In this document: positions 26,740 through 64,000 of the stretch, in pieces | How the letters are laid out: every line of letters starts with the position of its first letter | Numbering within the stretch: position 1 is the first letter of the stretch | Assembly: GCA_000320605.2 (NCBI GenBank) | Contig: KB445806.1 | Coordinates: 24,409-88,408 of the forward strand | DNA length: 64,000 nt | DNA from: Gelatoporia subvermispora B | Lineage: Eukaryota; Basidiomycota; Agaricomycetes; Polyporales; Gelatoporiaceae | Direction: 5' to 3' | Notes under the pieces: generated by a model | The model's database searches: none | Told to the model about the DNA's origin: nothing | Seen by the model: only the letters and a program-made list of their open reading frames with translations | Program-made: the position numbers and the translations under genes

Positions 26740-27649
26740 GAAGGTGTGATGCAAGTCACGTATCACGTTTCGAAGCGCGCTACGTGACCCTTGTGCACTG
26801 TGGCGGCGAGCCATCCACACTCGTTCCCCCTCACCGTCTCGCCTCGTACGACTCTCTGGGAGCCAGAAAAAGCTACCCCACACTAAAACTTCGGAAGTCA
26901 GTGCCCCATGTCCGCTAGGTGAGCCAACTTCATCGGGTGATGTCGTTGAAGTAGTCGCCTCTTGGTTGGACACTTGCTCAAATCCTTGCGCACAGGATGC
27001 GCTCGTATGATTCTCAAGCATTATAATCGTACCAGCGAATCGCAATATGTTGGTAATGTTGTCGAAACATCTTCGGATTGTGAGACATTACGAGGTTCGA
27101 GTTTGAGAGCTTGAAGCGTTGGTCCCCTGCCACGATGATCGGCAGCGAGCCTGAGTCTTACGCGTCAGTCAATACTCAGCCAAAGCCGAACATCCTCCGA
27201 GTGTGCGTCTAGATATAGTTCGTGTGCGAAGTCTCGCTAGGTCTCGGCATGCAGGATCTGAATATTACCCATCGTGCGTATAGGAGATAGCAATAAGGCC
27301 GCGAATGCTGAGCCTGACGTCCGCTATGGCAACGCGATAGCAGCAATGCGGGGCACGTCAAGAGTGAAATTTTCGCGCGAAGAAAACTACGAAGGGAGGG
27401 CGAAGCAGATCTGAGGGCGCTAGATGGGACGTTGGTAATTGCTGTCGGAGGTAATAATGCGTGCCGAATCTTCGTCGCGTCAGGATGCGCACTAGATTCA
27501 CGACAATCAAGTGCAGCAGGAACATGCTTGTGCTCGATTCGCGCACGCCCTTGTTTTATCGATGAGAGATGAACGAATCAATGGCAGCGTGACGCGACGC
27601 ACCTACTAACATCAGCTTCTGGAGTGCACAGAACATCCTGGATCATCCC

Positions 27650-27760
27650 ACGCTCGTTGGACCAACTCCGCGACTTGCGGCGCTACGAAGCTCCCAGCTG
27701 GACCCGTGGAAAGAGAAGTCATGAATCAGCGGGCGTGTCCGCACATAAACTGAAAGTTTT
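27650..27760 (+). promoter_or_regulatory. Conserved upstream block of array gene A
   Basis: A block running from CGCTCGTTGGACCAACTCCG through GACTTGCGGCGCTACG and CAGCTGGACCCGTGGAAAGAG to a CACATAA element about 60 bp before the ATG is kept almost unchanged in all four units. Flanking non-coding DNA is less conserved, so this is probably the core promoter, with CATAA as the TATA-like box. Confidence 0.5.
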
Positions 27761-27811
27761 CGCTAGCCCTACCCCCAGATTCCCTCGTCGAGAACCTCTC
27801 CTATCTCCGAT

Positions 27812-30035
27812 ATGGATTACAGCCCGTACCCCATCGATTCATCGAGCGCGACGTCCATGGTCCCCGCTGCGATACAATACCTACCTCTTCCATTTCCACA
27901 ATGTCATAGTTATTACGTGCCCCATGGCGTCGATGAGCTCTTGCGATACCCTCCACCCAGAATCTCAAAATACGCACGAGGTGAAGCGATAGATCTATAT
28001 GAAACGCCCATCCAGGTGAGAATTTTACATGTAGCATGGCATTGAACAGACACGTCGTCGATCAGCGTTGTCTGTCGTTTGCAATACGGCAACCGACGGA
28101 CAGCGCAACGATACAGCTGCTCTCGACAGATTGGCGAGGTTCCATTTCATGTATTGTACTGACGAGCGCGCTCCAAGACGAATATCCCGTACATTCTGCC
28201 TAGCCCTCAAGCTGGACAATTTGTCCATGATACGGCTCAGTACCTCCAAGGTACTGAACAATCTGAAGTAATAAATGTACCCATCGCGGGATTATCCCAG
28301 TGGATTCAACCCGTGCAACACGAGGTCAGTTACACTTCTTCATTGTCCAGTAGCAGCCGTACTGAGAGAGTAGTCCAAGGATCAGCTTGAGCTTCTCAGT
28401 AGTACGCCAGAGGCCTGCTTTTCCAGTACCACGTACGAGCCAATGCACTCTACGCCTTCATACAACGCACCAGATGCCCTATCCTCCAATACCACGTACG
28501 AGCCAACGTACTCCACGCCGTCAGACAACACGGCAGAGTATGATGTGTCAATGCATATGGCCCCAGCATACGGTATGTCTGAGTACATGCAAAGTACGTG
28601 TACTCGCACGCGTACAACGTTCCATCCAATAATGTTGTGACGTACTTCCCAATCTCAGACATAGATTACCTTGTCTCCAATGGCGCTGACACGTGGCCAT
28701 ACAATACGTCTATGCCGGCGTACATCCCGGAAATGCCCAGCGCCCACAGCGATACTCAGGGTATGCATGTCCACGGATGTATGCTTGCTCGCTTAAGATG
28801 ACACTGCTACGCATCTCAGGTATGGGGCTCTTGGCCAACAACGACGGCATGCCGATGTACGGCGCGTCCATGGGGACATATGCCGAGCAGAGGTACACCA
28901 GCCCGACATGTGGGGAGCCAAAGTACTCCAGGCCGACGCCCGTCGCTCCAAGCGACACACGGGACATGTGCATGCCGATGTCGCAGGCGCCGCCAGACAA
29001 CACGGAGCTGTGCAGTATCCCCATGGCCACGCAGGGTACGTGTATCCGTGCACCTTCAATTCGATCATGATGCGATACGCCCCAGACGTAGGGCAGTTCG
29101 TTCTCACCAGCAACATGCTACCGTACGACGTGTCCATGTCGGTCGACATTGTGTCGGCATATGATGCGCCACTGTACACCGGACCGGTGCCCAACGCACA
29201 AGGTGTGATGCAAGGTATGTGTATGCACAGTGGCACGCAGTCACACTGATGAACGTGGCGACGCACCTCAGACATGGGACAACTCATCCCCAGTAGCGTG
29301 GCTTACCCCACGGATGCGAGCCAACCCGCCCCGAGTACAAGTTTGCCGCGTGAAGATACAGAGCCCGTTGAGCCGTCATCTGGCCCAATGCGCGAGAATC
29401 GACGACAGATGCGACAGAAAACCGGCTCGAAGAGAAAAAAGTCGAAGGACCAGCGCGCCGCTGCCGACCCGAACACCAATCCGTCGTGTGGCAATGGTTC
29501 CGGTATGGCACTAGTACTCTTCCTCCATCAGCGACATGAACAGGCTGATACTGATACTCACAGGCTCATCAACGAGAGAGGATGAAGGAGACGGCCCTAG
29601 GCAATATGATGCATGTACATCTTGGGGGTATGCCCGATGGGCTCCCCCGCCTGAGCCCAAACAGCGAGCTGGCGGGTCGTGTCTTCCGTGCTCGGAAAGG
29701 GCCAAGAGGTGCACTGGGAAGAAGAACTCGGGACAGCCTTGCCCGTAAGTCAGCTTTCAATTTATACGTGCAACCGGTCCCTGCCGCTACAGCAGAGCAT
29801 TCCCATTGCAGAATGCTCTTCGGTAGTTCTTCGGGCCCGCAGAGCTGAGTGGGCACTAACGGCTCGAGAGTGCCCGACATTGCACGCGCTGGCATTCTCG
29901 TATCTCCGGGCTTCCGTTATTGTTCTCGGCAGCGGTTTGTGAATGTACTGACACAAGACCTGTAGGGAGTGCATTGAGAAGAAGACTGTCCCGAGGTGCC
30001 GGTGGGAGCCCACCTTAGCTGAAGTACGGGTGTGA
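27812..30035 (+). CDS. Array gene A: mini-exon protein with C-terminal Zn2Cys6 cluster
   Basis: I do not recognise an existing family name. Exon 1 (27812-28015) begins MDYSPYPIDSSS and contains VDELLRYPPPRISKYARGE. Exon 2 is about 28178-28324, and exon 3 ends at 28593 (its start is uncertain). Exons 28659-28760, 28820-29035, 29086-29214 and 29272-29502 are all phase 1-1 and multiples of three, mostly opening with D(I/M/V)G or GMG and ending in Gln; they are rich in Tyr, Pro, Met, Thr and Asn. Exon 29564-29744 carries CLPCSERAKRC and NSGQPC; after a 221-nt intron, 29966-30035 gives PECIEKKTVPRCRW and the stop. Spliced, this is CX2CX6CX9CX2CX8C, a complete fungal Zn2Cys6 pattern ending about 12 residues from the C terminus. 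Before it is a Lys/Arg-rich NLS-like segment. Probable nuclear DNA-binding protein, by inference. Confidence 0.72.
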
Positions 30036-31699
30036 ACGCCGCGGTCACAAGGTTCGTACGAGCTACGTCTTCGTAATGCGCACTTGCAAACTCACTCCAT
30101 CCTGCTGTGTCGATGATCTGTGCATTGCGTTGTTGATACCTTGTGTAGTCTCTTCCCTCTCGCGAATCTCCGCATTCATTCTTCATTCCGTGCGAGTTTT
30201 CAGTGTATATGTGGCGCTGTGATTCTAGACGGATGGGCTCCTTGATCAACAAGCGTTGTGACCTTTGCCTGGGTCGTAGATGGTATAGATGATAGACCAA
30301 AGTTTATACAGACGCAGAGAGCCTTGATGCATTTACATCTGCATCGCCGCTACGGCACGTAGCTGTCGAGACTCGGGAGCTGATCGGGATCATCGCTCGG
30401 ATCGGAGTTCGTACTTATTTCCCACGGGATCTAAAGTCATCCCGACCAACTTATGATGCTTTCCCTTGGTTGCGCAGGACGAGAATGGTTTGAAACTTGC
30501 GGAGATCTATGAGAAGCTTGAGAAGTAGGACTGCCACCGTTTGACTGTCCACCATTGACTGGCCAGCGCTGAGAAAAGCAGTGAAAATGTAAGAGCTGAC
30601 AGGTCTAAGGTTTCACGCTTCTCAAGACTCATTCACAGACAACAACAGTAGGCTAGGATCGATGGCATTCGCATGCATTCATGTCCTTGCCTCCGACGTC
30701 TACTCGATGTTCTCTATACCTGCGGAGGATCGAGTGTCATCGCATCGAGGCAGAGCTCTGTGCTTCGGCAAGTGTGATGCCGGTTACATCATGCTTCGAA
30801 TGCGCACCACGTGACCCCATGCCACACTCAACAAGCCACACTTGTTCATCTTGTAGCGACGACTCGCCCATGACACTCGTTCCCCCTCATCGTCTTTCGC
30901 CCTCTACGACTATCTGAATACTAATAATGGCTGGTCTTCGTCCAAAGATTGGGAATGAGCGGCACATGTCCGCTAGATGTACTCAACTTCACTAGGTGAC
31001 GTCGAAGCAGTCATCCGAGTCCAAGGCTTGCTCAATTTCTTGCACACAGGACGCGTCGAAGTGATTCACAAGCACGAATTTCCAAAAAAACGTACATAGT
31101 CATCCATGCTGTCGCCCCGCGCTGAGGTATCCTGGCATTGTGTGATTTCGTAGGCCTGCAGTCTGAGGGTGAGACGCGAGCCCTAGCCACGATGATCGGC
31201 AGCAAGCGTAAGTCCTGCGCGTCAGCCGGCGTTCAGCCAGAGCCGAACATCTACCGAATCTGCGTCTATCGATGTAGACCGTGTGTAAGGTCGCACTGGG
31301 CCTCGGCATGGAGGACCTGAATGCTGCCCATCGTTCGCGTAGGAGATGGTGGGAAGTCCGTGAACGTTGAACCTATTCTTCGCTGTTGCAACACGCTGGC
31401 AGCAACACGGCGCGCGTTAATGGGTAGAATATTCAGTGTAGAAAACTACAAAAGGAGGTCGAAGCGAGTTTGAGAGCGCCAGGTGGGACGTTGTAATTGC
31501 TGTCGGAGTTCAATGAGGCGTGCCGAAGCTACGTCGCGTCACTAGAATCAGAACATCCAAGTGCAACAGGAACATCCTTGTGCTTGATTCGCTCATGGCC
31601 TTGTTCTATCGATGAGAGATGCACCAATCAATGACAGCGTGACGCTGCGCACCCACCTGCATCAGCTTCTGGAGTGCAGAGGACTCCCTGAAACATCTC

Positions 31700-31810
31700 A
31701 CGCTCGCTGGACCAACTCCGTGACTTGCGGCGCTACGGAGCTCCAGCTGGACCCGTGGAAAGAGAATCCAGGGATCGACGGATGTGCCCGCACATAAGTT
31801 GAAATTTTCG
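31700..31810 (+). promoter_or_regulatory. Conserved upstream block of array gene B
   Basis: Same block as upstream of gene A: GGACCAACTCCG, GACTTGCGGCGCTACGGAGC, CAGCTGGACCCGTGGAAAGAG, then CACATAAG about 65 bp before the ATG. Confidence 0.5.
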
Positions 31811-31856
31811 TCGGCCTGACCTCCAGATCCCCTCGTCGTGAACCCCTCCCATCCCC

Positions 31857-34419
31857 ATGATGAGTTATCACACGTACCCAGTCGACCCCTCGAGCACGGC
31901 CTCCGTGGTCCCTTCGGGGATACAATACTTCCCCATTCCGCCCTTCCGGCGTCATAGTACTTACATTGCGCATAGCGTCGATGACATACTGCGATATCCT
32001 CCTCCGAGCATATCGACGTATTCGCGGCGTCATGTAACATCTCTATATGAAAGGCCTATTCGGGTGAGACCACATCGTTCAGCGTAATGATCGTCGAATA
32101 CAAACCTACTGACGTTGGCTGTCGATTGCGGTGTAGTGATCGACAGGCAGCGTTGTGATGAGGCTTCTTCGGAAACTTGACTGTCTGCAGGGCGGAGTCT
32201 CTGAAGAGACACGCGCCTCTTCTCCAACACGACGCTAATCAGTTTGTCTTTAGACCGACTCTGCGTATAGCTTTCCAGCCGAACAATATGTCGGCGATGC
32301 AGCTCAATACCTTCCGGGTACTGAACAATGCGAAAACGTAGATGCACTCCTTGTGGGGTCACTCCAAACGGAGTATACCGTGCAAATGGAGGTCAGTTAC
32401 ACTTTTCCATTGCCCGGTAGCAACCGTACTGAACTAGCGATCCAAGGTTCGATCCAAAGTTGAAACGGGACCCATCAACGGTGCGCAGCAGGCGCCTGAT
32501 CTTCGCCATTCGAGCTGGCCGGCATATGACCAGCTCCAATCTAACATGACCCCGTGTGATGCAGCAGAGGACAACATACCTGACTACAGTGCGGCAACAT
32601 ATGCAGCACCATTGTACAATACATCGGTGTATGAACAGGGTACGTACGTCCTCGGAGACGCTCAATGTCAATCGATACAAGTTATGACGTACCTTAGGAA
32701 CAGATCAATTTGTCCCCGACGGTGGTATGGTACCACACAACACACCCATGCCATACGTTACGACGGCGTATCAAGTGCCAATGAACACCATAGCGATGCC
32801 CGGCATCCCCTATGACATGCATAGTATGTATACCCAGATACACACATCCCCGCTCGGTCTTGTGATGCGCTTTGAGCATAGGCCAACATCTCTCCAACCA
32901 TGATGACGCGGCCCCGCACGACACGGCGGAACACTACGCGCCGGAGTACAGTGCGACAACATATCCGGCGCCGATGGCCAACGCACCAGTGTACACACCG
33001 GGTACGTCCGTCCTCAAGCTTGCATGAGGTCGATCGATTCAGTTAGGACACACCTTAGTCACAGATCAATTTGCTGCTGACAGCAGTGTGTTGCTGTATA
33101 ACACATCTATGCTGTACAGTGCGACAATGTATCAGGTGCCAACGCACACCTTGGGAATGCCCGACGCTCTCGGTGATATGCAGGGTATGTGTGTCCACAG
33201 ATACGCACATCCTCACTTGATAATCTTGTGGTGCACTTTAGACATAGGGCAATGCCTTCCCAATCACGATCTATTTCCGGAAAACCCGCATGTGTCGGGC
33301 CACATCGCATCGGCATATGGCGCACCTCCAGATGATACGGGGGTGTACGACATCCCGGATGCTATGCAGGGTGCGTATGTCCCCAGATGCGCGCAGTTCA
33401 CCTGATGATGTTGTGATGCGCCTAAGATGTGGGTCAGGTCGCTCCAAACAACGGCGAGCAGATGCTCAGTACGTATGAACCTGTATACGATGCGCCGGCG
33501 TACACCGGATCAACGTACCAAATGTCCATGGCCATTGGACAGACGTACCAAGGGCCGATGGGTACTATGGCCATGCCTAACGCACCCGGAGGTGCGCATG
33601 GTACGTGTTTCCATAGTCGCACGTAGTGCTTGAAATGATATGACGCACCTCAGGAATGGACCAGGCTGGCCTCGATAGCATAACATGCCCCTTACGAACG
33701 GGTCAACTTGGCCCAAGTGCGAGTTCCCTGCAAGAGTGGGTACCGGTTGAGCCATCTTCGGGACCTGTCCGCCAGAAGCGGCAGCGACGAGGGAACACTG
33801 GGTCAAAGACGAAGGAAAAGGGAAAAGCGCGGCAAGGTCACCTTAGCCCTGCTGGCCCGAGCCCAGCTTCGTCCAGCGATAGTGGTTACGGTACGGCGCT
33901 GGCGCTGGCGCACTTCTATCAGCCCAGCTCAAGTAGACTTATGATAACACTCACAGGTTCCGTGTCACCGTCAACGTCGAATCTTAAATCCGAGGACAAA
34001 CCTGGGCAGCCTTTCGACCAGTCTATGTCGTGGGGACCATATGTCCCTCCGCCTGATCAGAGGCAGCGACGAGGGTGGTCCTGTCTCGAGTGCGGCGAGA
34101 GAGCAAAAAAATGCACCGGGAACAGGAGCACGGGAGAGCCTTGCCCGTAAGTCATCTCTCGATTTATACACATGGTCATGCCTCGCCGTAGTACTGCCGC
34201 AGAGCATGCCACTTGAGGATGTTTGCTCGGCAGTTCTTCGGCCGTGCGGTGGGGAGCAGTTCAAGCGTATCCGACGCTGCGCAGGCCACCTTCCTTGCTA
34301 TTTCCGAACTTGATTTTTCTCAGCGGTGTACTGATAAAGGGCCCTATAGGGAATGCCGCAAGAGGGGAACCCCGTTGTTGTGTCGATATGAACCCACCTT
34401 GGATGAACGCCAGATATGA
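31857..34419 (+). CDS. Array gene B: mini-exon protein with C-terminal Zn2Cys6 cluster
   Basis: Paralog of gene A. Exon 1 begins MMSYHTYPVDPSS and has VDDILRYPPPSISTYS, aligned with VDELLRYPPP of gene A. At least six repeat-type mini-exons follow, for example around 32700-32830 (DQFVPDGG), 33060-33186 (DQFAADSS, ending GDMQ), 33239-33371 (DIGQCLPNHD, ending DAMQ) and 33427-33600 (DVGQVAPNNG). The VPVEPSSGPVRQKRQRR segment is the counterpart of VEPSSGPMRENRRQ in A. Exon 33957-34146 carries CLECGERAKKC and STGEPC; exon 34350-34419 gives PECRKRGTPLLCRYE and the stop. The cysteine spacing is identical to A. Two consecutive ATGs start the frame; the second aligns with A. Inner exon limits are partly uncertain. 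Confidence 0.68.
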
Positions 34420-35970
34420 ATGCACCGCCATCCGTTCACTTCGGCTGCCTGCGTACTGCGTCAACTATACCCCTCGTGAAGACTTCCCATCCGCGTCTGT
34501 CCCCGAGTCACCTCTTGCGTTCTTCATGGCGTCCTTGGAGGTTCCCATTTGCGTCGCATTTTGTCGAATGTTTGTGTGTCGATAACTTGATACAAATGAA
34601 CGATACCCTTGTTTGAGAGCGTTGTGGATGTCAAAAAGATGAATGAACAACGTGGTTGGAGCCTAGACAGAGGTCCTTGAGCATCTGCGTCCCCGCCATG
34701 GTCATGGAGGCTTATGGTGATCGGAAGCCAATCATAGGCCTTGCGGCTTTGGGCGGAATTCACACGCTCACATCTCACTGAGAGCCAGTGCCACATATTA
34801 TTCCCACGGATCTACTGTACATCATGCAGCCAGCAGTAACGTTCTCACTTTCCTTCATTCTGCGCCCATACTTGCTTTCACAGCAAGTAACTGCTTGTGG
34901 CATGCACCATACTCCCAGAAAAATGAGGTGTAGTGACTTCTCTCAGAGTCCCGGAGTCCCCTGTCGTCGACTTTATTGCCTTTTAGAGCAAGATACGATC
35001 ATCGGAAGCACAGAAGCAGGTCTCGGAATACGTTCGAAATGGCAGGCATGTGTCTTGGTCACGGTTAACGACATCTTACGCATGATGCAGGAACTCTGTA
35101 TTTGCCTGTGGACACTCCCCACCCATCCCTGCTCCACCATAGCTCTATGAGTGGTGTGTCGAGGTTCATGCATCATATACCAAATACCTAAGGCAGCAGG
35201 GAATATAAGCTGGTCTATATTCCCTGAGACTCGGGCGCATCCGTCATTCTTCAATTTACTTATGCTGGTAAACGCGCTTTGCTAAAGAATACACTTTCGC
35301 GCTTCAGGTTGACTAACGACACAACTGACCGAGTGTTTAAGGCACTCGAATATCTCTCCCGATATTCTCAGATCAATGTAGATGGTCGCGCGGTGCACGA
35401 CTTCGTACATCTGGTTTGATAGGCCAGGCCATAGAAGCATTGGCCAAACGTATCTCGCCTGTGACACCGCATGCTTCTTTTGCGCAGACAACGGCGGTTT
35501 AATGTGTCCCTTGCCAATAAACTTATTCACGGATTGCACTTCGTTCCGCGACAAACATCACAAGGCAACAATCCTCGGTCTTCTTTGACGCGTTCCCGAT
35601 GCTAGTGACTTTGGCAGACTCGTCTGGGGTGGCATTTCAATTTGTTGCTTCAGCTGCTGTGTTTTGAGATCTGACTAAGACTCCATAGGACGATATGAAT
35701 TTTCAAGATATGCCACTTCTGCCTTGCAATAGTCCAGTGGGTTGCAAGAGTGGTCGTGTTCATTACCTCGCCAAACTATGGAGGTGATCGAATTCTATCA
35801 CCGCTAGTCGTCAGGCCATGACTGTCTTCTGTCCTGGACAGCCTGAGTGAGCCTGACATTATGGCGCTTCATTGCCGATTTGCATCGCTTGACTATGATG
35901 CATATTTTGAGGATCGCTGACCAAGGTCGTAATAGCGCAAAGTTGAGATCTCTCAGATCCCGGCCACTGT
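34420..35970. other. Spacer within unit B, no gene recognised
   Basis: The first 400 bp (to about 34870) recur downstream of gene B' at about 43990-44390 and, inverted, near 63170-63240. The rest is unique low-GC DNA with no recognisable gene. Confidence 0.45.
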
Positions 35971-36889
35971 GATGCAGGTCACGTGCCGCGCTTCGACTCA
36001 TGCGCGCTACGTGAGCTCACGCGCACGGCGCACGCCACACTCGTTCATGTTGTGGCAAGGAACTGCATCTCCATCTGCCCCCCCGTCATATCTCGCCCTC
36101 TACAACTGGCTAGAAGCTGAGATCAGCTGGATGCCAACATCGGCCTGCGAATGAACAGCTCGCATCCGCTGTGTGTGCTCAACACTAGGTGACATCGAAT
36201 TAGTCATCTCTCGAGCGGAGACCTACTCGAATTTTGCACGCAGGGCGAGTCGGAACCGCCACGATGATGCTCAACGCCTCACTCACATATGGCAACGCAA
36301 ACAAGGACTCCATTCCGTTGAGCCGGATCATCAAGTCGTAGAGTAAAGTTTACAGGATTGAATTTCTGGACGCTGGGCTCTAGCCACGATGATCGGCGGC
36401 GAGCCTGAGCCCTACTCGTTGAACCAGCGTTCAGCTAAAGCCGAGCACCTACGGCTTCTGTACCTGCGCACAGGCCTTGTGTGAAGGCCCGCCTGGATCT
36501 CGGCATGGGAACCTAAGTGCAACTAGTTATTTGCGAAGTAGATAGTGAGAACTTGATGAGCTCGAAGGGCTCTTGTTCGCAGTCACGGCACCCGATATGC
36601 CAGATGGCGAGGCCCTCGGACAAATGGACTTGCGAGGCGGAGGGCGAAAGTTGGGGGAGCCCAGAATGAGATGTTGGCCCGGGCTGCCACATATTAACGA
36701 TGAATGCCGAATGTTCGCTGCGTCAGGACGCGCACCAGATCCACAAGGTTCAAGTCTACCAGGAATGTCCTTCTGCTTGATTCGCGCATGCCCTTGTTCT
36801 ATCGACGAGAGACGAAACAATGACAGCGCGACGCGACGCACCCACCTGCATCAGCTTCTAGAGTGCAGAGATTATCCTGAATCATCCCA

Positions 36890-37000
36890 CGCTCGTTGGA
36901 CCAACTCCGCGACTTGCGGCGCTACGGAGCTCCCAGCTGGACCCGTGGAAAGAGAAGCCATGAATCGACGGGCGTGCCCGCACATAAGCTGAAATTTTTC
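36890..37000 (+). promoter_or_regulatory. Conserved upstream block of array gene A'
   Basis: Same GGACCAACTCCG, GACTTGCGGCGCTACGGAGC and CCCGTGGAAAGAG sequence followed by CACATAAG, about 70 bp before the ATG at 37050. Confidence 0.5.
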
Positions 37001-37049
37001 GCTGGCTCGACCCTTCACCCCCTCGTCGTGAACCTCTCCCACCTCCGAA

Positions 37050-39204
37050 ATGGATCACAGTCCATACCCATTCGACTCATCGAGTGCGATGTTCATGGTC
37101 CCTGCGGGGATACAAGACTTGCCCACCTCGGTTCCCCATCGTCGTAGTTGTTACGTGCCCCATAGCGTTGACGAACTGTTGCGATATCCTCCGCCGAAGA
37201 TCTCAAAATACGCACGAGGTGAAGCAATGAATCTATTTGAAACACCCATCCAGGTGAGGAGTTCAAGTGCAGCACGGCAGCAAACAGGGACGACGTCATT
37301 CAACGTTGTCTGTCGTTGGCGATCCAACAGCCGACAGACACCGTAGCGGCTCAGCTGCTCTTGGAAGATTGGCGATGTGCGGGGGCACAAAATCTCTAGA
37401 AAAGCAAGCCATCTGAGGCATTGTACTGATGAGCGTATCTAAAGATGAACAACCCGAATAATCAGTATAGCCCTCCAGCCGGAGAATATGTCCATGAGAC
37501 GACTCAGTACCTCCAAGGTACTGAACAACTTGAAGCCATAGATGCACCCGTCGCAGGGTTGTCCCAGTGGATTCAACCCGTACGACACGAGGTCAGTTAC
37601 ACCTCCTCGTTGTCCAGTAGCAGCCGTACTGAGAGCAACCCAAGGACCAGCCTGGACCTCTCAGTAGCATGCAAGAGGCCCAGTTCCCCAGCACCACGTA
37701 CGAGCCAATGTATTCTACGCCGTCGTACTCCACGGCAGAGGATGATATGTCAATGTATATGGCCGGCATGTCTGAGTTCATGCAAGGTACGTGTACTCGC
37801 ATACATACAGAGTCCCATCTAATAATGCTGCGACGTATTTGCCCATCTCAGACATGGATAACCTGGTCTCCAATGGCGGTGACACGTGGCTATACAACAC
37901 GTCTATGCCAGCGTACACCCCGGAAACGCCCAGCGCCCACAGCGATACTCAGGGTACGCATGTCCACGGATGTACGCTCGCTCACTTAAGATGACACTGC
38001 TACGCATCTCAGGTATGCAACCCTTGGCCAACAACAACGGCATGGTGGTGTACGGCGCGTCCATGGGGACATATACCGAGCCGGGGTACACCAGCCCGAC
38101 ATGTGGGGAACCAGAGTACTCCACGCCGATATACGTCACCCCGGGCGACACACAGTTCATGCCGGTGTCGCAGGCGCTGCCAATTAACACACAGCTGTTC
38201 AGTATTCCCGGTGCTACGCAGGGTACGTGTGTCCACGGATGCACACATTCGATTCGGTCATGATGTGATAAGACCCAGATGTAGGGCAACTTGTTCCCAA
38301 CAGCGGCATGCTGCCGTACAACGTGTCCACGTCGATCGACATTGTGTCGGCATATGATGCGCCACTGTATACCGGACCGGTGCCCAACGCACAAGGCGAT
38401 ATGCAAGGTACGTGTATGCACAGTGGCACGCACGCGCAGTTACACTGATTAACGTGGCGACGCACCTCAGATATGGGACAGCTCATCCCCACAAGCGTGG
38501 CTGGCCCATCGGGTACGAACCAACCCGCCCTGAGCACGAGTTGGCCCCGTGAAGATCCAGAGCCCATTGAGCCGTCATCTGGCCCAATGCGCGAGAATCG
38601 ACGGCAGAGGCGACGAAAGACCGGCTCGAAGACAAAAAAGTCGAAGGATCGGCGCGCCGCTGCCGACCCGAGCACCAATTCGCAGAGTGTGAATGGTTCC
38701 GGTATGGCGCTAGCACTCTTCCTCAGTAAGCGAAACGAACAGGCTGATACTGATGCTCACAGGCTCATCAACGAAAGAAGGCGAACGAGACGGCCCTAGG
38801 CAATACGACGCAAGTACATCTTGGGGGCATCCCCGGTGGCCTCCCCCGCCTGAGCTCAAACAGCGAGCTGGCGGGTCATGTCTTCCGTGCTCGGAAAGGG
38901 CCAAGAGGTGCACTGGGAAGAAGAACTCGGGACGGCCTTGCCCGTAAGTCAGCTTTCAATTTATACGTGCGACCGGTCCCTGCCGCTACAGCAGAGCATA
39001 TCGGGCTCGCAGAGCTGAGCGGGTACAAACGGCTCAAGAGTGCCCGACATTGCACGGGCCGGCATTCCCGTATCTCCGGGCTTTCGTTATTGTCATCGCT
39101 GGCGGTTTGTGACGTGCTGACGAAGGATCTGTAGGGAGTGCATTGAGAAGAAAACGGTCCCGAGGTGCCGGTGGGAGCCCACCTTAGCTGAAGCACGGGT
39201 GTGA
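37050..39204 (+). CDS. Array gene A': close paralog of gene A, Zn2Cys6 at C terminus
   Basis: Exon 1 (37050-37253) gives MDHSPYPFDSSS and VDELLRYPPPKISKYARGE, the same 68-codon length as in gene A. Later mini-exons match A almost codon for codon, for example DMDNLVSNGGDTWLYNTSMP, GMQPLANNNGMVVYGASMGT and DVGQLVPNSGMLPYNVSTS. The zinc exon ends CLPCSERAKRC, NSGRPC; the last exon (to 39204) gives PECIEKKTVPRCRW and the stop. Exon 3 is shorter than in A (one YSTPS repeat deleted) and its 5' junction is unclear in both copies. The gene lies entirely before the N gap. Confidence 0.7.
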
Positions 39205-39320
39205 ACGTCGTGGTCACAAGATTCGGACGAGCTACGTTGTCGTAATGCGCACTTGCATACCCACTCCATCTTTTTGTTCCTATGATCTGCGCACTGCGTT
39301 GTTGATACCTTGTGTAGCCT
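39053..39320 (+). repeat. 268-bp segment identical to 39899-40166 (gap flank)
   Basis: The sequence ending at the first N and the sequence starting after the last N are the same 268 bases with no difference seen. The segment includes the last exon of gene A'. Most likely an unmerged contig overlap. Confidence 0.85.
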
Positions 39321-39898
39321 NNNNNNNNNNNNNNNNNNNNNNNNNNNNNNNNNNNNNNNNNNNNNNNNNNNNNNNNNNNNNNNNNNNNNNNNNNNNNNNN
39401 NNNNNNNNNNNNNNNNNNNNNNNNNNNNNNNNNNNNNNNNNNNNNNNNNNNNNNNNNNNNNNNNNNNNNNNNNNNNNNNNNNNNNNNNNNNNNNNNNNNN
39501 NNNNNNNNNNNNNNNNNNNNNNNNNNNNNNNNNNNNNNNNNNNNNNNNNNNNNNNNNNNNNNNNNNNNNNNNNNNNNNNNNNNNNNNNNNNNNNNNNNNN
39601 NNNNNNNNNNNNNNNNNNNNNNNNNNNNNNNNNNNNNNNNNNNNNNNNNNNNNNNNNNNNNNNNNNNNNNNNNNNNNNNNNNNNNNNNNNNNNNNNNNNN
39701 NNNNNNNNNNNNNNNNNNNNNNNNNNNNNNNNNNNNNNNNNNNNNNNNNNNNNNNNNNNNNNNNNNNNNNNNNNNNNNNNNNNNNNNNNNNNNNNNNNNN
39801 NNNNNNNNNNNNNNNNNNNNNNNNNNNNNNNNNNNNNNNNNNNNNNNNNNNNNNNNNNNNNNNNNNNNNNNNNNNNNNNNNNNNNNNNNNNNNNNNNN
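39321..39898. other. Assembly gap (578 N)
   Basis: Run of N. Any open frame spanning it is meaningless. Confidence 1.
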
Positions 39899-40166
39899 CA
39901 CGGGCCGGCATTCCCGTATCTCCGGGCTTTCGTTATTGTCATCGCTGGCGGTTTGTGACGTGCTGACGAAGGATCTGTAGGGAGTGCATTGAGAAGAAAA
40001 CGGTCCCGAGGTGCCGGTGGGAGCCCACCTTAGCTGAAGCACGGGTGTGAACGTCGTGGTCACAAGATTCGGACGAGCTACGTTGTCGTAATGCGCACTT
40101 GCATACCCACTCCATCTTTTTGTTCCTATGATCTGCGCACTGCGTTGTTGATACCTTGTGTAGCCT
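39899..40166 (+). repeat. Second copy of the 268-bp gap flank
   Basis: Exact repeat of 39053-39320. It contains an orphan copy of the last Zn2Cys6 exon, which should not be annotated as a separate gene. Confidence 0.85.
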
Positions 40167-41696
40167 CTTCCCTCTCGCGAATCTCCGCATTCATTCTTCA
40201 CCCCGTGCGAGTTTGCTGTGTATATGTAGCGCTGTTGTTCTAGACGGATGGGCTCCTTGTTCAACAAGCGTTGTGGTCTTTGTCTGAGTCATAGATGGCA
40301 TAGACGATAGACCGACGTCTATGCAGACGTGGAGAGCCCGGATGCATCTACATCTGCATCGCTGCTACAGCTCGTAGCCGTCGAGACTCGTGAGCTGATC
40401 GGGATCGTGCTTCGCTCGGATCGGAGTTCGTACTTAGTTCCCACGGGATCTAAAGTCATCCCAGCCAACTTATGATGCTTTGTCTCGGTTTCGCAGCACA
40501 AGAATGGCTGGAAACTTGTGGACACTTACGAAAAGCTTAAGAAGTATGATCGCCACTTTTTGGCTGTCCATCATTGACTGGCCAGCGCTGAGAAAAGCAG
40601 TGAGAATGTAAAAGCTCATTCATAGACAGTCACAATGGCCTAGGATCGACGGCGTTCGCATGCATCCATGTCCTGGCCTCCGACCTCTACCACATGTCCT
40701 CTATACCTGCGGGGTATCGAGTATCATCGCATCGAGGCAGAATTCTATGCTTCGGCAAATGTGATGTCGGGCACATCATGCTTCGAATTCGCGCCACGTG
40801 ACCCCACGCCTCACTCAACAAGCCACACTTTGTTCATCTTGTAGAGATGAACCACCCATGACACTCGTTCCCCCTCATTGTATTGTGCCCTCTACGACTC
40901 GCTGAATACTAAGGATGGCTGGTATTTGTCAAACGATTGAGGATGAGCGTCACATGTCCGCTACATGTACTCGATTTCACCAGGTGACGTCGAAGCAATC
41001 ACGTATTAGTCGAAGGCTTGCTCAAATACTTGCATCCAGGAGTCGTTGGCTGGATGTTCAAGCACGAATATCCAAACAACGTGGCGCCACACGCTCATCC
41101 GTGTTGTCGGCCCGCGCTGAGGTATCCTGGCGTTGTGTAATTTCGTGGGCCTGCAGTTTGAGAGTCTGAGACGCTGGGCCCTAGCCACGATGATCGGCAG
41201 CGAGCTTAGGCCCTACGCGTCAGCCAGCGTTCAGTCAGAACCGAACACTCACCGACTTTGCATCTTTAGATATAGACCGTGTGTCAAGTCGCGCCTGGGC
41301 CTCGGCATGCAAGACCTGGATGTCGCCCATCGTTCGCGTAGGAGATTGCGAGGAGGCCATGAACGCTGAGCCTACTGTCCGCGATGGCGGTAGTACAGCG
41401 CGCGTCAACGAGTGAAATCCTGGAGTATAAAACTTTGCGAAAGGAGGGCGAAGCGAGTTTGAGATGCCAGATGGGACGTTGGAATCGCTGCCGCAGTTTA
41501 ATGAAGCGTGTCGAATCTACGTCGCATCAGGACGTGCACCAGAATCAGACAATCCAAGTGCACCAGGAACACCCTTGTGCTTGATTCGCTCATGGCCTTG
41601 TTCTATCGATGAGAGATGCACCAATCAATGACAGCGTGACGCTGCGCACCCACCTGCATCAACTTCTGGATTGTAGAGGACTCCCTAAAGCGTCTC

Positions 41697-41810
41697 ACGC
41701 TCGTTGGACCAACTCCGCGACTTGCGGCGCTACGGAGCTCCAGCTGGACCCGTGGAAAGAGAATCCAGGAATCGACGGATGTGCCCGCACATAAGTTGAA
41801 AATTTTATCG
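41697..41810 (+). promoter_or_regulatory. Conserved upstream block of array gene B'
   Basis: Same GGACCAACTCCG, GACTTGCGGCGCTACGGAGC and CCCGTGGAAAGAG series and CACATAAG element, about 65 bp before the ATG at 41854. Confidence 0.5.
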
Positions 41811-41853
41811 GCCTGACCTCCAGATCCCCTCGTCGTGAACCCCTCCCATCCTC

Positions 41854-43974
41854 ATGATGAGTTATCATACGTACCCAGTCAACTCCTCGAGCACGGTCTC
41901 CGTAGTCCCTGCGAGGACACAACGCTTCCCTAATCCGCCTTTTCGGCGTCATCATCTTTACATCGCACATAGCGTCGATGACCTACTACGATATCCTCCT
42001 CCGAGTATATCGACATATTCGCAGCGTCATGTGACGTCTCTATATGAGAGGCCTGTTCAGGTAAGAAAACAGCGTTCAGCGTGATGATCAGTCAAACACA
42101 AAACCTACTGGCATTGGCTATCGATTGTGATGTGGTGATCGACAAGCGGTGTTCCGATGAGGCTTCCTCGGTAGGTTGGCTGTCTATAGGGAGGAATCTC
42201 TGCCTGAGAAAACACGCGCCTCTTCTCTAACATGATGCTAATCAGTTTGTCTTCAGACCGACCTTGCGTATAGTTTCGCAGCCGAACATTACGTCGGCGA
42301 CGCAGCTCAGCACCTTCAGGGTATCAAACAATCGGGAACCGTGGATGCACTCCTTGCGAGGTCACTCCAAACGGAGTATACCGTGCAAACGGAGGTCAGT
42401 TACACTTTTCCGTTGCTTAGTAGCGACCGTACTGAACTAGTGATCCAAGGTTCAAACGGGGCCATCAACGGCGTGCAGCAGGCGCCGGATCTTCGCCATT
42501 CGAGCTGGCCGGCATACGACGAACTCCAGTCCAACATGATCCCGTATAATGCAGCAGAGAACAGCATACCTGAATACAGTGCGGCAGAATATACAGCACC
42601 AATGTACAATATATCGGGGCATGGACAGGGTTCGTACGTCTACAGGACGCTCAATGTCATTTGATACATCATACAAGTTATGATGCACCTTGGGCACAGA
42701 TCAATTTGTCCCCGACGGTGGTATCTTACCAAACAACACACCCACGCCATATGTTACGACGGCGTATCCGGCGCCAATGAACACCATAGCGATGCCCAGC
42801 ATCCCTTATGACATGGGTGGTACGTGTACCCAGATACACACATCCCTACTCAGTCTTGTGATACGCGTTGAGCATAGGCCAACATCCCTTCAACCACGAC
42901 CACGTGGCCCCGCATGACATGGCCCTGCACAGCACGGCGGAACACCATGCGCCGGAGTACAATGCGACAACATATCCGGCGCCAATGGGCAGCGCACCAG
43001 TGTACACAGCGGGTACGCCCGTCCTCAAGCTCGCATGATGTTGTTCGATTCAAGTTATGACATACCTTAGTCATAGATCAATTTGCTGCCGACAGCAGTG
43101 TGTTGCCGTATAACGCATCCATGTCGTACAGTGCGACAGTTTATCAGGTGCCCACGCACACCTTGGAAATGCCCGGCGGCATGCGGGGTATGTGTATCCA
43201 CATTCACGCATATCCTCCTTTGATAATCTTGTGATGCGCTTTCGACATAGGGCAGTACCCCCTCAATCACGATGTGTTTCCGGAAGGCCCGCATGCGTCG
43301 GGCTACATCGCACTGCCGTATGGTGCACCTCTAGATACCACGTGGATGTTCGACATTCCGGGTGCTACGCAGGGTGCGTATGTCCAGAGAGACGCACAGT
43401 TCACCTGATAACATTGTGATGCGTCTTAGACGTAGGCCAAGTCGCTCCTGACAACGGTGGGCAGATGTTCAGTACGTCTGAGCCTGTATGCGATGCGCCG
43501 GCGTACACCAGGCCAACGTACCAAACGTCCATGGACACTGGACAGACGTACCAAGGGCCGATGGGCACTATGGCCATGCCGAACGCACCCGGAGGTGCGC
43601 ACGGTACGTGTTCCCATAGTCGCACGTAGTGCATGAAAATGATATGACGCACCTCAGGAATGGACCAGCCTGGCCTCGAAAGTATAACACGCCCCTTACG
43701 AACGGGTCAACTTGGCCCGAGTGCGAGTTCCCTGCAAGAGTGGGCACCGGTTGAGCCATCTTCAGGACCAGTCCACCAGAGGCGGCGGCAGCAACGGCGG
43801 GACACAGGCTCGAAGGCGAAGGGAAAGGGAAAAGTGCGGCAAGGTCACCTTAGCCCTGCTGGCCCGAGCCCAGCTTCGTCCAGCGATAGTGGTTACGGTA
43901 CGGCACTGGCGCACTTCTATCAAGTGAGCTCAGGTAAACTCATGATAACACTCACCGATACCGCGTCGCCGTGA
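41854..43974 (+). CDS. Array gene B': truncated paralog of gene B without Zn2Cys6
   Basis: Begins MMSYHTYPVNSSS with VDDLLRYPPPSISTYS. Mini-exons DQFVPDGG, DQFAADSS, and DVGQVAPDNGGQ match gene B. Over about 42341-42625 the frame TVQTEVSYTFPLLSS to NISGHGQ is open throughout, so the corresponding stretch is probably exonic in other copies too. It then follows B through VEPSSGPVHQRRRQQRR and GYGTALAHFYQ but stops at 43974. The acceptor before the zinc exon (CTCACAG in B) is changed to CTCACCG, and about 480 bp carrying both zinc exons are missing. Either a decaying copy or a natural variant lacking the DNA-binding part. Confidence 0.62.
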
Positions 43975-44575
43975 ACGTCGAATCTTGCCATATCCTTCGT
44001 GAAGTCTTCCCATCCGCATCTGTCCCCGAGTCACCTCTTGCGTTCTTCATGGCGTCCTCGGAGGTTCCCCTTTGCGTTGCGTTTTGTCGAATGTTTGTGT
44101 AGAGATACAAATGAACGATACCCTTGTTTGGGAGCGTTGTAGATGTCCAAAAGATAGATGAATGACGTGGTTGGAGCCTAGATAGAAGTCCTTGAGCATC
44201 TGCGTCCCAGCCATGGTCGTGGAGGCTCATGGTAATCGGAAGCCAATCATAGGCCTTGCGGCTTCAGGCAGATTTCTCACGCTCACATCTCACTGAGCCA
44301 GTGGCCCCTGAGTGCCACATAATATTCCATCGCTTTCCTTAATTCTGCAACCACACTTGCTTTCACAGTAAGTAACTACTTGGACCATGCATCAGACTTG
44401 AGAAGAAGTATGAGAAATATTAAAGGTGCTGTCGATCGGCACCCTTGATAGACAGAATTAGGGAAAGCGGAGAGGAGTGACTCAGAGAGAACATAAACCC
44501 GGGTTTCTTGGCAGCTAGGGGTATCAAGGCAAACCAGCTCGCGCGCGGGCCATTGTGTATCACGAGTGGCATGTG
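43975..44575. other. 3' flank of array gene B', no gene recognised
   Basis: Up to about 44390 it matches the 3' flank of gene B; the rest separates the array from DOC1. No gene recognised. Confidence 0.45.
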
Positions 44576-45522
44576 TTATCGTATACACTCATACATCTTG
44601 AAAGGCGGTGAGACGAATGGAAACGGATCCTCGGCGTCAGATATATCCCTAGTTACGAATGTCAGCTCCCATTATTCGCTGACGAATGGAGTGTACGCAC
44701 CCCAATGGACCCAACACGCGTAGCCCTCTCACGTGTGTATCCTTTCCATTCATATGATTCGACAAAATGATCACTTGCAGGATGTACGCATGAATTGGGA
44801 TGCTGCATACGACATCAGTACCGAGCACTCGCTAACAGCCAAGAGGCCACAGAGGGGACCCACAAGCCGTCACCGTCCTCATTCGGTTCCGCAGAGACAT
44901 CAAACGTGATCCACCCGTCGGGCTTCTCGAGTGTCACAATCCGCACATCTTGCATGTCGCTTGGGCCCGTCCCTGCGCGGACGGCGATGGTTGCAGGCGT
45001 GTAGGAATCATCGGCACGGTAGCTGAGATATATGCTAACTTTCTGCAATGGCAATGCGCATGGGATATTCACATGATTGCGACAAGATTAGGACGGAAGA
45101 CGCCTTGACAACATACCTGGATGGCTACCTTGCGAGGAAACTCAAGCGTGATGAAGTGCGGCTGAGGTCCGTCAGAGCTATGCGACTACCAACTTAGCAT
45201 TGGACGAGTAAAATGCATCGAGTGAATGTGACAAGAGGACGTACTGCCAGAACGTGTCTGGATTGCTATCTCGTAGACACTCCGGACCAAATCCGAACTT
45301 GTACGATGAGACAGACCACTTGGCGAGGCAGCCGATGTCGGGCCAATCCAAGAGAGGGGGCTTGGGTCCTTCATATGTCAGCGGTTGTCAGATACAGTCC
45401 AAGTAAAGTGCGCGCGCGGGACTGAATGCACCGGGATGGATGATGGGTCCTGCGGCTTCTACAGGTACTGGCGCGGTAGTGCTATATGGAAGCCCCGGCG
45501 GGACAGCGACGTTGACGGACAT
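44576..45522 (-). CDS. DOC1: Anaphase-promoting complex subunit 10 (DOC domain)
   Basis: Processivity and D-box receptor subunit of the APC/C ubiquitin ligase. Minus-strand exons spliced by conservation: MSVNVAVPPGLPYSTTAP, a join to DWPDIGCLAKWSVSSYKFGFGPECLRD, then FWQ to SDGPQPHFITLEFPRKVAIQ, KVSIYLSYRADDSYTPATIAVRAGTG, DMQDVRIVTLEKPDGWITFDV, IPIHAYILQVIILSNHMNGKDTHVRGLRVLGP and a short last exon. The protein ends MYECIR: the terminal Ile-Arg is the IR tail by which APC10 docks on Cdc27, which supports the last exon. Intron boundaries are all GT-AG. Confidence 0.94.
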
Positions 45523-63535: not shown

Positions 63536-64000
63536 TCACACCCGTGCTTCAGCTAAGGTGGGCTCCCACCGGCACCTCGGGACCGTTTTCTTCTCAATGC
63601 ACTCCCTACAGATCCTTCGTCAGCACGTTCACAAATCGCCACCGATAACAATAACGAAAGTCCAGAGATACGGGAATGCCGGCCCGTGCAATGTCGGGCA
63701 CTCTTGAGCCGTTAGTACCCACTCAGCTCTGCGAGCCCGATATGCTCTGCTGTAGCGGCAGGGACCGGTCGCACGTATAAATTGAAAGCTGACTTACGGG
63801 CAAGGCTGTCCCGAGTTCTTCTTCCCAGTGCACCTCTTGGCCCTTTCCGAGCACGGAAGACATGACCCGCCAGCTCGCTGTTTGAGCTCAGGCGGGGGAG
63901 GCCACCGGGGATGCCCCCAAGATGTACTTGCGTCGTATTGCCTAGGGCCGTCTCGTTCGCCTTCTTTCGTTGATGAGCCTGTGAGCATCAGTATCAGCCT
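63536..64000 (-). CDS. Array gene E: inverted fifth copy, last two exons only (continues outside window)
   Basis: Minus strand. The exon entering at the window edge carries GSSTKEGERDGPRQYD, APPPELKQ-type linker, CLPCSERAKRC and NSGQPC up to about 63800. After an intron the last exon gives PECIEKKTVPRCRW and the stop at 63536. The coding part is nearly identical to gene A'. It shares with A' a shortened intron relative to gene A. The 5' part lies beyond the window. Confidence 0.75.

Follow-up and report, generated by a model that had tools for sequence, protein, structure and literature searches.

Among described Zn2Cys6 proteins, LEU3 and PUT3 carry N-terminal clusters. A C-terminal position has been described as well: going by the title of Anderson et al. 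1995 (cited in PMC2447501), the C-terminal Zn2Cys6 cluster of UME6 binds URS1, while the authors of the work on PacX likened its C-terminal Zn2Cys6 cluster to Ume6 and Czf1 (PMC4832277). In Pleurotus ostreatus, as set out in PMC7295025, 4 of 66 zinc-cluster proteins have a C-terminal cluster, where C-terminal means the last third of the protein.

The earlier note on the 64,000-nucleotide stretch of Gelatoporia subvermispora B analysed here (the window; C16:24409-88408 in the 37.7 Mb and 52 contigs that we searched) had drawn attention to three genes, A, B and A', said to end in a CX2CX6CX9CX2CX8C pattern behind a Tyr/Pro/Met-rich body. We built gene models by hand from GT-AG sites and from comparison of the copies, keeping frames and phases in view while drawing. 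On the forward strand, the predicted spliced models are A (27812..30035; nine exons, 497 aa), B (31857..34419; 11 exons, 551 aa; the start reads ATGATG, giving 31857 or 31860) and A' (37050..39204; nine exons, 471 aa), all of which are open, with GT-AG introns throughout, the shortest being 50 bases. The motif C..C.{6}C.{5,12}C..C.{6,8}C matches residues 454-486 of 497 in A, 508-540 of 551 in B and 428-460 of 471 in A', leaving 11 residues from the last Cys to the stop, and the full pattern described in the note was found in all three. In A, the first zinc exon (29564..29744) carries Cys1-Cys4 and the second (29966..30035) carries Cys5, Cys6 and the stop, the cluster being cut between Cys4 and Cys5 by an intron of 221 bases (29745..29965). 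The zinc exons of B (33957-34146 and 34350-34419) and of A' (38763-38943 and 39135-39204) are predicted to be split at the same codon, CC/G of the Pro after Cys4, as the note had it.

Two further copies in the window are incomplete. B' (41854..43897, forward strand) is open for nine exons (466 codons) with the zinc exons deleted, positions 33986-34466 of B having no counterpart in it, and it is a possible regulator without a DNA-binding part. If its last donor is left unused, the frame (41854-43974) reads on to a stop at 43974. Of A'' (63536..63978, reverse strand), just the two zinc exons are visible (63978-63798 and 63605-63536), the remainder falling inside an N gap beyond the window.

Outside the window there are predicted models for A''' (near C16:107.6-109.8 kb, reverse strand; 483 aa) and for C (near C16:762.8-764.6 kb; 402 aa), the latter 36-37% identical to other members. 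Genome searches with C-terminal pieces of the family added E, on contig C15 (five exons, 307 aa), and D, on contig C38 (257 or 247 residues, depending on the choice of second intron). In all seven members with open models (A, A', A''', B, C, D and E) the six-Cys arrangement is intron-split and C-terminal, with the stop 6 codons (D) or 11 codons (the others) past Cys6; the six Cys thus fall within the last ~45 residues, in keeping with the extreme C-terminal position first proposed. Pfam gave no match to fungal_trans (PF04082) in A, B, C, D or E, and A minus its last 60 residues contains 6.9% Y, 11.9% P and 5.3% M, so that both the lack of a fungal_trans-type domain and the composition of the body were borne out.

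These members are tied together by more than the cluster. E, B and C have a common FD-x3-SWG ahead of it, and exon phases, in models drawn with frames in view, agree across members: 0-0, 0-0, 0-1, then a run of phase 1-1 exons, then 1-2 and 2-0. The number of phase 1-1 exons ranges from zero (D, E) through one (C) and four (A, A', A''') to six (B). D is the least certain member, being tied to the others by its cluster and by these phases, and its second intron has 32 bases in the first model, too short to be likely (that of E has 42). A frame-keeping donor 30 bases upstream would give 62 bases and 247 residues; the N-terminal half of D is therefore uncertain, while its zinc exons are independent of the choice. 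A further match, at C8:1609127-1609249, is a relic-like zinc exon with a retroelement-like frame nearby; judged by eye to be decayed, it was left out of the count.

We consider it probable that these genes encode lineage-restricted Zn2Cys6 regulators with a cluster at the extreme C terminus, a modular body, a history of A-B duplication and a shared promoter block containing CGG-N6-CCG. In such proteins, the cluster would be the DNA-binding end, the basic stretch ahead of it would probably serve nuclear import and DNA contact, and the Tyr/Pro/Met/Ser-rich body, made up in part of phase 1-1 exon modules, would probably provide activation or contacts with other proteins. The CGG-N6-CCG in the block common to most members would be where a Zn2Cys6 dimer acts, plausibly one formed by family proteins, and the array would grow by duplication of A-B pairs and by the addition of phase 1-1 body exons. 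From the DNA sequence we infer splicing, zinc binding, DNA binding, activation, dimerisation and self-regulation alike; our best reading is of a family of transcription factors that evolve fast and perhaps regulate one another.

The case for such wiring comes from a block of ~210 bp, which in the window lies on the forward strand upstream of A (27538..27759), B (31588..31808), A' (36781..36998) and B' (41585..41805), with a CGG-N6-CCG dyad at 27730-27741, 31779-31790, 36969-36980 and 41776-41787, respectively. Used as the query of a genome search, the B' block gave eight matches genome-wide at 75-95%: B', A (at C16:51946-52167), B, A', A''', a gap edge, C and E. The block of E returned the same eight places, namely its own, that of C (74%) and six others (77-79%), and with neither query was the block found in the genome away from family members or the gap edge. 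Since A and C are nearly saturated at synonymous sites (dS 1.65), selection probably maintains the block. We think it unlikely to be protein-coding, given the one-base length differences between copies in the alignment.

The CGG-N6-CCG dyad is present in all eight blocks, with six different spacers, and in the seven copies showing an ATG it starts 78-91 bp before it, a few bases ahead of a TATA-like CATAA. A second dyad, CCG-N7-CGG, occurs in seven of the eight (not C). Neither is found within 1 kb upstream of D, which is without the shared block. Of 20,000 column shuffles, a test made after the dyad had been seen, 9 produced a conserved CGG-N6-CCG and 473 a conserved CGG/CCG dyad of whatever kind, and the dyad is in itself common, with 42 occurrences in the window against 27.7 expected. 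Ppr1 and UaY sites are described as having a six-base spacing (PMC4832277), and the invariant dyad is suggestive of a Zn2Cys6 site. It points to a dimeric Zn2Cys6 protein at the family promoters; that this protein is the family itself is an attractive, unproven idea.

Nearly evenly poised, in our judgement, is the alternative that the family regulates other genes, its shared promoter being driven by an unrelated Zn2Cys6 factor with no self-regulation. The genome contains at least 24 other Zn_clus matches, any of which could explain the dyad, and a member without the block, D, is what such an arrangement would allow; the confinement of the block to the family fits a family-internal role better, yet is compatible with an unrelated factor too. 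At the other extreme, we think it unlikely that the genes form a self-contained circuit, in which family factors bind the CGG-N6-CCG in their own promoter. In such a circuit, output would be tuned by copy number and by added body exon modules, B', its cluster lost, could act as a natural inhibitor, and retention of the Cys4-Cys5 intron would contribute a protein without a complete cluster.

Calling the domain Zn2Cys6 depends in part on its spacing, which is CX2CX6CX9CX2C followed by X8C (A, A', A''', B, C) or X6C (D, E), so that all seven members with open models have the Zn_clus (PF00172) pattern CX2CX6CX5-12CX2CX6-8C, the form in which the Zn2Cys6 spacing is given in PMC7295025. Basic residues lie between Cys2 and Cys3 (SERAKR, GERAKK, GKRKKK, FRRKRQ), two of six in E (TDTGRK), and in an alignment of the C-terminal ends of C, A, A', B, E and D the only invariant columns are the six Cys and two Gly. 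Relative to Pfam's curated cut-off for Zn_clus of 21 bits, D scores above it both whole (22.3 bits) and as a piece (26.8), and E passes as a 53-residue C-terminal piece (21.6) and stays below when whole (16.2). B (12.5 whole, 17.7 as a piece) and C (11.9 and 16.5) are below the cut-off, and Pfam gave no Zn_clus match in whole A or in an A'''-type piece. A profile of A, A', A''', B and C matched E with a probability of 95.6 (E 1.1e-8) and D with a probability of 81.1 (hhalign; E 1.2e-5), each E-value being that of a single comparison. The domain of the window genes is thus named from its relatives E and D together with the spacing, its own score being insufficient, and the family cluster is most likely Zn2Cys6.

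We find it improbable that the C terminus is instead another zinc module, of treble-clef or knuckle type, built on two CX2C pairs and binding protein or RNA. What speaks for such a module is that DUF4379 (PF14311), a probable treble clef, scores near Zn_clus on the pieces of C (15.1 bits) and B (14.9), exceeds it on whole C (13.7) and reaches 10.4 on whole B, and that a search of the PDB with the profile placed the ribosomal protein mS40 first (E 0.012), followed by LEU3 (0.46), CYP1 and PUT3, none of them below 0.001. On the Zn2Cys6 side, the end of C as a single sequence best matched LEU3 (2er8; E 0.42) and then PUT3 (1ajy; E 1.3), neither match being significant. However, every DUF4379 score is below the curated cut-off of 24.5 bits, DUF4379 spans the two CX2C pairs only, whereas Cys3 and Cys6 are likewise invariant and at Zn2Cys6 spacing, and the model matched by D and by the piece of E is Zn_clus, not DUF4379. 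Counting against the Zn2Cys6 reading, only 6-11 residues lie past the cluster and no dimerisation part is known, whereas classical members have a linker and a coil after it.

The family appears to be growing. The genes run A B A' B' along one strand, while on the opposite strand A''' is followed by a B-type upstream block, an order suggestive of whole A-B pairs having been copied, in agreement with the view that the locus is expanding. B has an internal duplication of ~390 bp (66%) that runs across exons and introns and is direct evidence for module addition. An N gap of 17,091 bases (C16:88409-105499), which begins at the window's end, interrupts A'' and has a B-type upstream block at its far edge, so more copies than those counted here probably exist. 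Within the window, a second N gap (39321-39898, 578 bases) lies between exact 268-base duplicates (39053-39320 and 39899-40166). Two assembly pieces probably overlap here without having been merged, so that the second 3' end of A' is probably an artefact of the assembly.

Several observations bear on whether the genes are real. Between close copies, non-zero differences in exon length are multiples of three in 9 of 9 cases over four pairs (introns, 11 of 18), in pairs that are not independent and models drawn with the frame in view. The dN/dS ratios (bootstrap intervals) are 0.43 (0.32-0.59) for A-A', 0.46 (0.34-0.65) for A-A''', 0.55 (0.36-0.81) for A'-A''' and 0.49 (0.35-0.69) for B-B', all intervals lying below 1. 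Among the A copies, constraint is weakest in the body (0.55-0.77), exons 1-2 having ratios of 0.23-0.34. A' and A''' differ at one base in their aligned zinc exons, which suggests recent exchange. A and A' are 84.5% identical in exons and 84.4% in introns, and this near-equality in close copies implies that the family proteins change fast.

That same equal divergence is also what would be expected if the models were wrong or the genes dead, the cysteine exons remaining unjoined in vivo and the array being decaying duplicate DNA. Such a state would likewise suit exon joins that are predicted, a B' without zinc exons, the relic on contig C8, the 32-base intron in the first model of D, and a protein database that gave back no family protein of the genome itself. 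We nevertheless judge it highly improbable, in view of seven members whose frames stay open through their 5-11 exons, of dN/dS intervals that lie under 1, of exon lengths that differ in threes and of exon phases shared by all members.

The intron that cuts the cluster has 191-221 bases, except in D (76), and an intron directly after Cys4 was present in none of the eight other Zn_clus matches examined (8 of 24 in the genome). Elsewhere, at C7:640191 and C7:651016, two near-identical Zn_clus genes lie ~11 kb apart in opposite orientation, another recent duplication. We compared introns by counting matches against the largest of 20 shuffles. For the last intron these are 127/100 (A-B), 132/96 (A-C), 116/91 (B-C) and 89/88 (C-E), with A-E at 79 matches against a shuffled mean of 80. 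The first intron gave 78/76 (A-B) and 67/65 (A-E), with A-C, B-C and C-E below their shuffles, and both intron 2 and the one preceding the zinc exons exceeded shuffles in each of the three pairings among A, B and C. Since other introns likewise stand above shuffles, the last is not special in its conservation. A hairpin in it was dropped as a family feature, being strong in C only (z -5.2; A -1.9, E -1.2) and missing in B (-0.6) and A' (-0.3), and Rfam found no RNA element at E 1 in 27000-45000.

Least likely of all, with negligible probability, is that a longer downstream exon places the cluster early or midway in an ordinary Zn2Cys6 regulator, an outcome that the earlier note had named as refuting its reading and that many introns and predicted splicing could permit. 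Arguing against it are the stop so soon after Cys6 in every open-model member, the lack of fungal_trans matches, and the distance of 1.5-2.4 kb from A, B and A' to the upstream block of the unit that follows.

C-terminal Zn2Cys6 factors seem few. Here, a series from five to 11 exons in a single genome allows the growth of a regulator body by exon modules to be traced gene by gene. The upstream block, found at this family alone and with a variable spacer in its CGG dyad, would make it inexpensive to ask whether a family of transcription factors expands while under its own control. The intron within the cluster keeps the domain out of sight of searches made exon by exon, and comparable genes of other fungi may be missed in the same way.

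Searches for relatives were carried out in a protein database of 5.8 billion. C alone gave no relative at E 1e-3 among 3193 candidates, and an alignment of A, A', A''', B and C none at E 1 among 7415. These searches, which covered A, A', A''', B and C, need shared words and like lengths, and introns spoil predicted proteins; no family protein was returned even from the genome itself. The COX10 of the window, used as a control, returned 2914 proteins (the best named among the 120 listed being that of Obba rivulosa, a polypore of Gelatoporiaceae, at 77%), and the database thus holds fungal proteins. In the literature searched, we found no published report on this family, on its exon modules or on the upstream block that its members share.

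UME6 is a single gene with a known target and partners, unlike the family. LEU3 resembles the family in having nine residues between Cys3 and Cys4. Among proteins with a cluster towards the C terminus, PacX of Aspergillus nidulans is like the family in this position, in being lineage-restricted and in that the part of its description available to us makes no mention of fungal_trans. It differs in that its cluster lies at 445-472 of 661, with some 190 residues after it, and, by description, in having an N-terminal coiled coil and in being a single gene of Leotiomyceta (PMC4832277). UME6 of Saccharomyces cerevisiae shares with the family a C-terminal Zn2Cys6 cluster (by description, PMC2447501) and Czf1 of Candida albicans a cluster towards the C terminus (by description, PMC4832277), and PoZCP14, 16, 22 and 55 of Pleurotus ostreatus are mushroom proteins described as having the cluster in the last third, PoZCP55 differing in that it has septin domains as well (PMC7295025). 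The statement in the earlier note that no described family has this architecture is therefore contradicted by the C-terminal clusters of PacX, Ume6, Czf1 and the four Pleurotus proteins, and its claim of an undescribed system would hold for the family and not for the position of the cluster: the family itself, modular, array-forming and with an upstream block of its own, appears undescribed, whereas the domain is an established one and its position, though unusual, has precedents.
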